From the IMG/VR virus record IMGVR_UViG_3300031857_001331, positions 1-24,384 of that record: a stretch of DNA of 24,384 nt. One strand, 5' to 3'. Positions 17,929 through 20,517 of this stretch are shown here, piece after piece (within the stretch, counting starts at the first letter, position 1; the number at the start of each line of letters is the position of its first letter). The position numbers and the translations under genes are program-made. Below the pieces are notes generated by a model that saw only the letters and a program-made list of their open reading frames with translations, did not search any database and had not been told where the DNA came from. This DNA is from a virus.

Positions 17929-20517
17929 ATGGCCCGCAAGGCAGCATCCCAACCACCGCGCGAGCCGATCCGCTTTGAGCCTGATGGCCGAATCCTGTCG
18001 GCGTTCCTGCTCGCGGACAATGAGTTCGACATCATCCAGGGGCCGATCGGCTCGGGCAAGACCGACGCCGCGATCATGCGCCTGTTCCGGCATGCAAGTC
18101 AGCAACCGCCGCAAGGCGATAAGGTCCGGCGCTCCCGCTTCGCCATCGTCCGCTCGACCTTCCCTGAGCTGAAGACGACGACGATCCCCTCGTTCGTGAA
18201 CCTGTTTCCCGAGGGCTCGGAGGCGCAGGGCGGCTTCGGCGAGATGTCGTGGTCGCCGCCGTTCACCTACCACATGCGCTACGGCGACATGGAAGCCGAG
18301 TTCATCTTCCTCGCGCTGGACAAAGACGACGATGTCAAGAAGCTGCGCTCGCTGCAGTTGACCGGGATCTATTTCAACGAGCTTCAGTACATCAGCCTGA
18401 TGCTGGTGACGGAGGGGTTGTCGCGTTGCGGCCGCTATCCGTCCGTCAAGAACGGCGGGTGCAACTGGTCCGGCGGCATCGCTGACATGAACGCGCCCGA
18501 GAGCCTGCACTGGGCGCCCATCATGTTCGGCAAGGCGCCCGTGCCGGACCACTTCACGCCGGACGACGTGCAGAAGCACCGCCGCCCGCCCGGCTGGTGC
18601 CTGTATGTCCAGCCGCCGGCGCTGCTGGTGCTGGACGATGCGCTGAAGGCCTCTGGGCTGGAGCCGCTGAATCCGGGCGACGAGGTCGAGTACTGCGTCA
18701 ACCCTGGCGCCGAGAACCTGCGCTGGCTTAGGCCGGACTACTACCCCAAGAAAATCCACGGCGTGACGCGCCAGTGGATCGACGCCAACTGCCGCAACAT
18801 CGCCGCCAGCCAGATGAAGGGTAAGGCGGTGCACCCGCTGTTCCGCGGCGAGGGTGAGCGCAACAGCCACGTCAGCCCGAACGCGCTCAAGTTCAATCCC
18901 GAGCTGGAGCTCTACGTCGGCATGGACTTCGGCCTGACGCCGGCGGTCGTGTTTGGCCAGACCATCCGCGGCCGCGTCTTCGTGCTGGGCGAGCTCTACG
19001 CCGAGGGCGTCGGCGCGGTGAGCTTCGCGCCCGTGGTCAAGCGCGAGATCCTGCGCCGCTTCGGCGGCCTCGATCTGGCGCGCGTCAAGTTCATCGGCGA
19101 CCCTGGCAGCGCCGTCCGGTCACAGACCGACGAGCAAACCCCGTTCGACATCTTCCGCCAGCAAGGCATGCCGGTCCGACCGGCCCCCGGCGCCAACCGC
19201 TTCTCCAAGGTCGGCGGGCGCAAGGAGGTGGTCGACAGCCTGCTCGAGCGTCAGGTCGACGGCTATCAGGCGCTGATGATTGACCCCGGCTGCCGCATGC
19301 TGGTGCAAGGCCTGAGCGGCGGCTACCAGTTCAAGGTCACCAAGTCCTCGTTCGGCGAGTTCGTCTCCGACGACGTCGTCAAGAACCAGTACAGTCACAC
19401 CTGCTTTGTGGCCGGGACGTTGGTGAGCACGCCGTCCGGCCGCGTGCCGATTGAGACGCTTCAGCCCGGTGATCTCGTCCTGACCCCAAATGGCGCGCAG
19501 AGGGTCGCGGCCTGCATGAACCGCCCCGCGTCCGACTTGGTGCAGGTTCATCTCTCCAATGGCCGCAAGATCACTTGCACGCCCGAGCATCACTTCGCTG
19601 TTGATGGCGTGCGTTTTGTGCGTGCTGATGCTTTGCAGTATAATGATCTCCTAGTCGGAGAATGTGATTCATGGGCAGACCCGCGAAGTACCCAATCCAA
19701 GAGTTCAACGGGCGGCGCTATTACCGTCGACCCGGCCCCAGCGGTTATTACCGCTGCGACCCCAAGTTTGGCGGGCGCTACATGCATCGCGTCGTCTGGG
19801 AGCACCATCACGGGCCGATCCCCGATGACCATCATATCCACCACGTCGACGGAGACGCAGCCAACAACGCAATCGAAAATCTGGAGGCGATGCACGCGGA
19901 GGATCACGCAAAGCACCACTGGATTCACGACGGACCTATGCCGCAAAACTGCGCGGGGTTTCTGGCTACCATGCGGCTCAAAGCTGCTGAGGCAAAGAAG
20001 TGCCCAGAATATCGCCGACGCGCCAGCGCCGCCGCCAAGCTCGACGCCTCAAAGCGCGAGCCTCAGCAACACGAGTGCGTCTGGTGCGCTAAGCCCTACT
20101 GGGTCAAATACGGCTACAGAAAAAAGGGCTTCTGCTCCATGTCCTGTCAGGGCATGGCCCGCAGGGCTTCCGGCGTGGATGACGTGGATCGGATCTGCGT
20201 TCAGTGCGGCGTCGGCTTCCGCACCAACAAATATTCAAAGGTCACGCACTGCTCCAAGAGTTGTTCGGGTCGAACCGCTGCGGCTCTACGGCTCGCTACC
20301 CGTCTATGACTTAGAGGTCGAAAACGAGCACGTCTTCTACGTGGAGGGCGCGCTGGTCTCGAACTGTGACGCGTTCCAATACCTCCTGCTGGGTATGGGC
20401 GAGGGCGGGAACCTGCTGTTCGGTGCCGGCCGCAACGTCGCCGCAGTACAGACCAAGGTGCAGGCGCGGGTGTTCGATCGCGGATCGCGCGCGCCGCTGT
20501 TCCGGGCCCGGCGATGA
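17929..20517 (+). CDS. terL: Terminase large subunit interrupted by an intein
   Basis: An 862-aa precursor. The ATPase domain shows Walker A GPIGSGKT (38-45) and a Walker B-like LTGIYFNEL (144-152). The nuclease domain shows YVGMDFGLTP (around 333) and KFIGDPGSA (around 390). At Cys492 an intein begins (CFVAGTLV) and ends at VSN812; the C-extein resumes as CDAFQYLLLG (813 on). Without the intein the junction reads SHT-CDAFQYL, the conserved end of the nuclease domain with its last acidic residue, and a protein of 541 aa, normal for the family. It drives ATP-dependent DNA packaging and cuts the concatemer. The start ATG 17929 has no obvious ribosome site. Splicing is needed for the nuclease to be complete. 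Confidence 0.93.
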   Translation: MARKAASQPPREPIRFEPDGRILSAFLLADNEFDIIQGPIGSGKTDAAIMRLFRHASQQPPQGDKVRRSRFAIVRSTFPELKTTTIPSFVNLFPEGSEAQGGFGEMSWSPPFTYHMRYGDMEAEFIFLALDKDDDVKKLRSLQLTGIYFNELQYISLMLVTEGLSRCGRYPSVKNGGCNWSGGIADMNAPESLHWAPIMFGKAPVPDHFTPDDVQKHRRPPGWCLYVQPPALLVLDDALKASGLEPLNPGDEVEYCVNPGAENLRWLRPDYYPKKIHGVTRQWIDANCRNIAASQMKGKAVHPLFRGEGERNSHVSPNALKFNPELELYVGMDFGLTPAVVFGQTIRGRVFVLGELYAEGVGAVSFAPVVKREILRRFGGLDLARVKFIGDPGSAVRSQTDEQTPFDIFRQQGMPVRPAPGANRFSKVGGRKEVVDSLLERQVDGYQALMIDPGCRMLVQGLSGGYQFKVTKSSFGEFVSDDVVKNQYSHTCFVAGTLVSTPSGRVPIETLQPGDLVLTPNGAQRVAACMNRPASDLVQVHLSNGRKITCTPEHHFAVDGVRFVRADALQYNDLLVGECDSWADPRSTQSKSSTGGAITVDPAPAVITAATPSLAGATCIASSGSTITGRSPMTIISTTSTETQPTTQSKIWRRCTRRITQSTTGFTTDLCRKTARGFWLPCGSKLLRQRSAQNIADAPAPPPSSTPQSASLSNTSASGALSPTGSNTATEKRASAPCPVRAWPAGLPAWMTWIGSAFSAASASAPTNIQRSRTAPRVVRVEPLRLYGSLPVYDLEVENEHVFYVEGALVSNCDAFQYLLLGMGEGGNLLFGAGRNVAAVQTKVQARVFDRGSRAPLFRARR
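19402..20364 (+). mobile_element. Terminase intein (Hint domain) with out-of-frame endonuclease insert
   Basis: A 321-aa intein, residues 492-812 of the terminase precursor. Block A is CFVAGTLVSTPSGRVPIETL with nucleophile Cys1, and block B is ITCTPEHHF with the T-x-x-H motif. Blocks F/G are VYDLEVENEHVFYVEGALVSN followed by Cys+1. The penultimate residue is Ser instead of the common His. Between about residue 90 and 287 of the intein the terminase frame encodes only low-complexity Ser/Thr/Ala/Pro-rich sequence, because that DNA codes for an HNH endonuclease in another frame. It therefore behaves as a mini-intein with a long linker. It is inserted at a highly conserved terminase position, as is usual for inteins. 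Confidence 0.9.
19671..20309 (+). CDS. HNH homing endonuclease nested out of frame inside the terminase intein
   Basis: A 212-aa HNH endonuclease with its own start (ATG 19671, CGGAG at 19656-19660), read one base earlier in register than the terminase. The HNH_3-type core is MHRVVWEHHHG (38-48), HHIHHVDGD (54-62), NNAIENLE (65-72) and HAEDHAKHH (75-83). Two zinc fingers follow (C136/C139/C155/C159 and C176/C179/C194/C198). Its last 30 or so codons overlap the DNA encoding the start of the intein C-terminal splicing region. It probably cuts intein-less terminase genes and so spreads the intein. Unlike standard large inteins the nuclease is not fused to the splicing domain, so it should be made independently of precursor splicing. 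Confidence 0.88.
   Translation: MGRPAKYPIQEFNGRRYYRRPGPSGYYRCDPKFGGRYMHRVVWEHHHGPIPDDHHIHHVDGDAANNAIENLEAMHAEDHAKHHWIHDGPMPQNCAGFLATMRLKAAEAKKCPEYRRRASAAAKLDASKREPQQHECVWCAKPYWVKYGYRKKGFCSMSCQGMARRASGVDDVDRICVQCGVGFRTNKYSKVTHCSKSCSGRTAAALRLATRL

Follow-up and report, generated by a model that had tools for sequence, protein, structure and literature searches.

The stretch of DNA analyzed here (the window) comprises 24,384 nucleotides (positions 1 to 24,384) of IMG/VR virus record IMGVR_UViG_3300031857_001331, in which the gene for the terminase large subunit (TerL) is interrupted by an intein whose middle also encodes, in another frame, an HNH endonuclease. The TerL open reading frame (ORF) extends from 17929 to 20517 on the plus strand, as do all features given below, and encodes 862 aa straight across the insert. 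The insert itself, at 19402 to 20364, interrupts the TerL frame with 321 codons (963 bases), from Cys1 to Asn321. Upstream of it, the N-extein (17929 to 19401) matches the terminase large subunit profile phrog_2 (E value of 2.9e-13, precursor residues 15 to 344) and, by tblastn, intein-less phage TerLs. Downstream, the C-extein (20365 to 20517) starts CDAFQYLLLG and aligns with intein-less TerLs whose first position is A or N in the nearest and C in more distant sequences. On sequence comparison, the spliced TerL aligns with intein-less TerLs without a gap at the junction. The first residue of the insert is Cys; inside it are TPEHH and VYDLEVENEHVFY, and it ends in ALVSN followed by the Cys of the C-extein. 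These three motifs we take to be intein blocks B, F, and G. When the intein was searched alone, matches to Hint_2 (9e-11), intein_Nterm (5.6e-6), and intein_Cterm (0.002) were all over the cut-off, and Pfam Intein_splicing (4.4e-8) fell just under it, with 33.5 bits against a cut-off of 35.8. Residues C1, T60, H63, and N321 are invariant across 30 sequences, and the +1 residue in the window is Cys. By sequence the insert is therefore classed as an intein, showing a Hint fold, splicing blocks at both its N and C termini, and the key residues, and as both halves lie on one ORF it is not a split intein within a fractured gene.

One base out of the TerL frame (+1), an ORF of 212 aa with its own ATG (19671 to 20309) is matched by HNH_3 (9.6e-16) and phrog_15471 (2.4e-30). 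The Shine-Dalgarno sequence GGAGA (19657 to 19661; duplex energy, -6.6 kcal/mol) ends 9 nucleotides 5' of the ATG, and 19671 is the only plausible start because a TGA in the HNH frame lies two codons before it. The HNH_3 catalytic domain spans residues 36 to 80 (19776 to 19910), and H57, H58, N66, N70, H79, and H83 are invariant in 31 sequences, so that the HNH motif and conserved catalytic residues of an HNH homing endonuclease are present. Among the same sequences, C136, C139, C155, and C159 are invariant and C176, C179, C194, and C198 occur in at least 90%; the two four-cysteine clusters that they form (residues 136 to 198; 20076 to 20264) are probably zinc binding.

In the AlphaFold model of the intein, residues 1 to 90 and about 285 to 321 had predicted local distance difference test (pLDDT) scores of mostly 87 to 98, and the middle scored about 40 to 50. 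The HintN half (about residues 1 to 90; 19402 to 19671) has a pLDDT of 87 to 98 and carries the HintN profile match at 19402 to 19665 (L001 coordinates plus 17901), and the HintC half (about residues 285 to 321; 20254 to 20364) has a pLDDT of 87 to 96, with the HintC profile from 20302. Between them lies a Ser/Thr-rich stretch (about residues 97 to 260; 19690 to 20181) that is predicted to be disordered filler, since the same DNA encodes the HNH protein in the +1 frame, and that drifts faster than the HNH frame. The first PDB matches of the intein model were 2lwy, an intein-like domain (5.9e-7), and the gp41-1 intein (4.8e-6). The HNH protein was modeled with a mean pLDDT of 93 and a predicted TM score of 0.53. 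Its profile matched a single PDB entry at an E value of 0.01 or better, the HNH homing endonuclease I-HmuI (1u3e; E value of 0.0041). A Foldseek search with the HNH model gave no match at 0.001 or better; I-HmuI was again top but weak (E value of 0.029; TM score, 0.29 to 0.35). I-HmuI comes from a group I intron of phage SPO1; unlike that intron, the splicing element of the window is a protein, for which reason the host frame must stay open. A preliminary description of the window had proposed an intein in the terminase frame with a Ser/Thr-rich middle and a complete HNH protein at 19671 to 20309 with its own start and ribosome site. The profile matches and predicted Hint fold, the low pLDDT of the middle, and the ORF, HNH_3 match, and GGAGA, respectively, bear out these proposals.

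As the two frames are one base apart, a single sequencing or assembly indel could have produced them from an ordinary intein with Hint and HNH in one frame. We give this explanation practically no weight: the 963-base insert is present without any difference in four other IMG/VR contigs, in the HNH frame a stop separates HintN from the HNH start, and, with HintN and HintC in one frame, two compensating indels would be needed, alike in all 70 loci of nested layout described below. Assembly error was accordingly rejected. The layout and offset of the window were also found in Rhodobacteraceae phage LS06-2018-MD07, Acinetobacter phage Highwayman, a gut phage contig, and IMG/VR relatives, and in Tetrasphaera phage TJE1 one annotated terL is matched by TerL and HNH in different frames. 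The nested layout is also that of relatives at 28 to 61% HNH identity, and Hint halves with HNH in frame between them, as an indel would imply, were not found in the sample of 132 loci described next. The annotation tables of TJE1 (L002), LS06-2018-MD07 (L003), Highwayman (L004), and Halobacterium plasmid pGSL19_54.9 (L235; a table incomplete by its own account) list a terminase or Hint protein only and leave the overlapping HNH gene unannotated. In pGSL19_54.9, a Hint-domain protein of the same nested layout stands beside a portal gene.

To survey the layout, 132 loci, the window's own copy included, were classed with profiles for HintN, HNH, and HintC. The viral scan with alignment A2 gave at least 600 stretches, of which 503 were confirmed and the best 80 were used, and the counts therefore describe a sample leaning to nearer relatives. 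A scan of genome_contigs with the same alignment identified 41 relatives; with the window's HNH alone it identified none. In 70 of the 132 loci, both Hint halves lie in one ORF with HNH between them out of frame, always at offset +1, and HNH was in frame between Hint halves in none of the loci classed. Of the others, 14 had HintN and HintC in different ORFs, 11 had HintN alone and 4 HintC alone (each in an ORF other than that of HNH), 30 had no detected Hint, 1 had no HNH match, and 1 (L123, with a weak Hint match) was at offset +2. The last, L132, has a HintN match in the ORF of HNH; it was rejected as an in-frame homologue, as the match reached only an E value of 0.02 and HintC was absent. 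The loci include copies: clustering of HNHs of at least 150 aa at 60% identity gave 91 clusters, 54 of which contained nested loci. A later scan contributed 8 further nested loci, 3 split ones, and 6 free ones (L133 and L135 are on contigs that had been sampled before). The layout is shared by many phages that are only distantly related. The preliminary description had called it an unusual gene-in-gene form of mobile element and had named in-frame fused homologues as one finding that would overturn it; the gene within a gene stands, in two ORFs and 70 nested loci, and no fused homologue was classed, but the form belongs to a widespread family and is not peculiar to this phage.

As a control, loci were selected by HintN alone, with listed near-copies and weak HNHs excluded. 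At an E value of <1e-15, 61 of 62 loci were at offset +1 and open through HNH, the exception (L095) having a frameshift within HintN. At a cut of 1e-5, 72 of 84 were at offset +1, and 69 of these were open (all but L066, L104, and L117); 10 were at offset +2, none of them open, and 2 were at offset 0; by their coordinates, these are L088 and L143, two split loci in which a stop separates HintN from HNH (including them, the open count is 71). Among the N-exteins, 53 of 62 match phrog_2 and 43 of 62 match Pfam Terminase_3, and in the listed loci the insertion site is mostly the NH/x-x-DA-x-RY motif of TerL (slashes mark insertion points).

The two frames are under different selection. Inside HNH, the +2 frame of the 70 nested loci contains 15.0 stops on average, and the +1 frame, by definition of the class, contains none (0/70). 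Among the loci without Hint, 28 of 30 have +1 stops (mean, 4.5, versus 14.5 in +2), and the other two are short matches. Two nulls were used to predict stops, in which synonymous codons were shuffled within each gene or codons were drawn from the same TerL. For 57 nested representatives, 106.7 (shuffle) or 192.6 (TerL codons) TerL-frame stops were expected and none was seen. The null fits free-standing relatives (n = 22; 123 stops seen and 126.5 expected) and split relatives (n = 13; 78 seen and 75.7 expected). In 26 nested pairs (5,037 codons), four of which repeat a single comparison, that between the window's type and L012's, substitutions favored third positions of HNH (frequencies of 0.319, 0.279, and 0.543 at positions 1, 2, and 3), and HNH identity exceeded +1-frame identity in all 26 (61% versus 34% for the window's type and that of L012). 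In an informal comparison, fourfold sites in nested pairs look much like those in free-standing pairs. From the codon-position pattern, a comparison that the preliminary description had proposed, and from the excess of identity, it follows that HNH is the frame conserved as a protein and that the TerL frame is there only kept open. The statistics show a TerL frame that selection holds clear of stops within the HNH gene and that is otherwise at liberty to drift. The constant +1 offset probably reflects either the frame in which an insertion is easiest to tolerate, since the +1 frame holds about a third of the stops of the +2 frame, or one origin.

Whether HNH is made separately was considered from its start region. 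A candidate start was found near HNH in 65 of 66 nested representatives, and 30 of these 65 carry a ribosome site whose energy is at least as good as -6 kcal/mol, compared with 12% of control draws. The ribosome site claimed for HNH at the outset is thus there in the window (GGAGA), and in relatives in only about half. The leaders of L007 relatives are often A rich instead; Bacteroidota lean little on Shine-Dalgarno sites. From the start, the ribosome site, and conservation, we infer separate translation of HNH. Programmed frameshifting could in principle join HintN to HNH, given that the frames lie next to each other and that some relatives have no clear ribosome site. This seems extremely improbable for the window, where the TGA two codons before the HNH ATG leaves almost no room for a shift and the ribosome site stands at the right distance.

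Mobility was examined through TerLs without the element. The comparison covered 18 of the 19 relatives of the window's TerL. The site is reached in 17 of these, being occupied in 4 (on contigs encountered before) and empty in 13. Among the empty TerLs, six are 99 to 100% identical in protein to that of the window and lack the element exactly at the junction. The window reads KNQYSHT/CDAFQY there; the eight nearest empty alleles read KNQYSHT/ADAFQY or KNQYSHT/NDAFQY, and five more distant ones already have Cys at +1. For the TerL family of L007, the comparison covered 60 of the 61 relatives, with 6 occupied and 54 empty. Such precise presence and absence in near-identical TerLs is what would be expected of a mobile element. 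Rank correlations of distances among 58 nested loci were 0.34 for HNH-Hint, 0.27 for HNH-TerL, and 0.17 for Hint-TerL, and L141 and L142 share 31% TerL, 74% Hint, and 67% HNH identity; Hint and HNH travel together somewhat more than either does with TerL, but loosely. Three different inteins occupy the same site in the L007 family (L187, L188, L190, and L207 versus L176 and L203), all with HNH at offset +1.

Homing endonucleases often decay, and HNH might be a relic, with only the mini-intein at work now; the window alone gives no test of HNH activity. The invariant or nearly invariant HNH residues and cysteines in 31 sequences, the excess of HNH identity in every pair compared, and the recent differences in presence and absence make such decay quite unlikely. 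It is very unlikely, in our view, that HNH is instead a free-standing gene which landed in TerL, forming an element that does not act as an intein in either splicing or homing, comparable to the insertion in ShiLan. Free-standing relatives of HNH do exist (the 30 loci without detected Hint), and the available part of PMC11855218 provides a precedent in phage methylases. Against it stand the invariant Cys1, Thr60, His63, and Asn321, Hint halves that model well, and a junction that restores the conserved TerL motif.

We consider it highly probable that the element is a mobile intein in phage TerL carrying an overprinted homing endonuclease. TerL would be translated straight through the insert, and the two Hint halves would assemble into one fold with an unstructured loop between them, cut themselves out, and ligate the exteins at the conserved SH-x/C-DA-x-QY motif; such splicing of the TerL precursor is suggested by the residues, the predicted fold, and the empty-site comparison. 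Independently, initiation at 19671 on the same mRNA would yield the HNH endonuclease by translation of the +1 frame. In mixed infections, the endonuclease would be expected to cut intein-less TerL alleles, and repair would then copy the intein in. Several observations weigh against this reading. By chance, the window's own second frame would be open in 2% or 5% of cases under the two codon nulls, or 3% in a separate calculation, and the 57 representatives were already classed as nested by their open frame; the fair figure is therefore that of the HintN-chosen loci (61/62). Chance openness is thus rejected for the family, though not for the window alone. No co-conversion tract was found beside the window's junction, and the looseness of the Hint-HNH correlation implies that the two parts have also been exchanged. 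One nested representative (L107) has no candidate start, and a strong ribosome site is absent from about half of the relatives.

Out-of-frame HNH genes have precedents. The insertions in phage DNA methylases, that of a mycobacteriophage among them, described in the available part of PMC11855218 (the ShiLan domain, reported in 2025, and that of Pacc40 gp60) share with the window a complete out-of-frame HNH gene, an open host frame, and a patchy distribution. They differ in that, according to the same part, splicing motifs are absent from their host frame and a ribosome site was not detectable, whereas the host frame in the window is that of an intein and HNH has a ribosome site; of the two ShiLan-type features, the window has HNH in a frame other than that of the open host gene and does not have a host frame free of a splicing domain. 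Another out-of-frame HNH is named in phage Applejack in the available text of PMC12613952. Canonical large inteins, as presented in the accessible part of PMC6801210, have the endonuclease at the same place between the Hint halves, as a domain of the intein; in the window it is a separate protein in another frame, and the intein's own frame contains no endonuclease domain. No intein with an out-of-frame endonuclease was found in the literature searched, outside which bioRxiv 10.1101/2025.01.02.630785 (by its title, on non-canonical architecture of inteins), Gorbalenya 1998, or Dassa 2009 may already report one, and the parts available of PMC3229294, PMC10448857, and PMC6801210 do not describe such a build. 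Out-of-frame HNH insertions without splicing domains are thus already published, and an intein carrying one may be new, with a reservation for the 2025 preprint.

In some relatives, TerL is split. In the split loci listed, except L095 and L098, the TerL-HintN ORF stops near the HNH start, and HintC, where detected, lies in another ORF. In L109, L117, L063, L055/L038, and, more weakly, L028, a C-terminal half about 35 residues long is directly preceded by a start and ribosome site; TerL is there divided between two genes, resembling a fractured gene that carries a split intein. The C-half start is poorly supported or uncertain in L056/L057, L086, L088, L094, L097, and L143 to L145, with L103 in between. 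Recoded stops behind the split-looking relatives were rejected, as nearly all such loci contain TAA plus TAG or TGA and no single reassignment opens them. On an HNH tree built by a quick method, with 49 of 96 inner forks open and 11 loci relabeled by hand beforehand, split forms cluster (7 changes versus 13.3 shuffled), as do nested forms (14 versus 31.3), and free-standing forms do not (16 versus 16.8). Fractured genes with split inteins, with an endonuclease gene between the halves, were reportedly described by Dassa in 2009. They resemble the window in encoding the endonuclease separately between intein halves, a layout that some relatives here have, and differ in that their halves are apart; those of the window form one polypeptide, overlapped by the endonuclease gene.

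The layout represents a third way of pairing splicing with homing, beside fusion and splitting, in which one stretch of DNA encodes, in two frames, two separately regulable proteins, and a frame bound only to lack stops offers a clean natural measure of the cost of overlapping frames. It also suggests a route to split inteins, and, given that the overlapping HNH was unannotated in the four records inspected, homing endonucleases may often be missed in annotation. More tentatively, overprinted inteins might constitute a distinct, widespread, and old class, not described earlier, in which the frame uncouples homing from splicing and which both offers a stable alternative to the fused type and forms a bridge toward fractured genes; a host-frame stop inside HNH and a C-half start would yield a split intein with a free endonuclease between the halves, as in related TerLs. 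As a whole, this is a proposal that we would sooner doubt than assert.

Three further loci depart from the common form. In L118 (3321 to 5645), the layout is nested at offset +1, but the intein uses a second insertion site, HDAAW/CDELAAW, which belongs to the ATPase part of a TerL of the Terminase_6 type and which we take to be the Walker B motif. In L123 (1531 to 3210), an intein-like insert interrupts a protein without a terminase match and contains the HNH_3 ORF (2225 to 2986) at offset +2, possibly an independent origin of overprinting. In L098 (3351 to 4727), from a Methanimicrococcus contig, the TerL frame is open through HNH and then meets one TAG, with ATG ATG at once; this is either a fresh split or a TAG read as pyrrolysine, as in related archaea.

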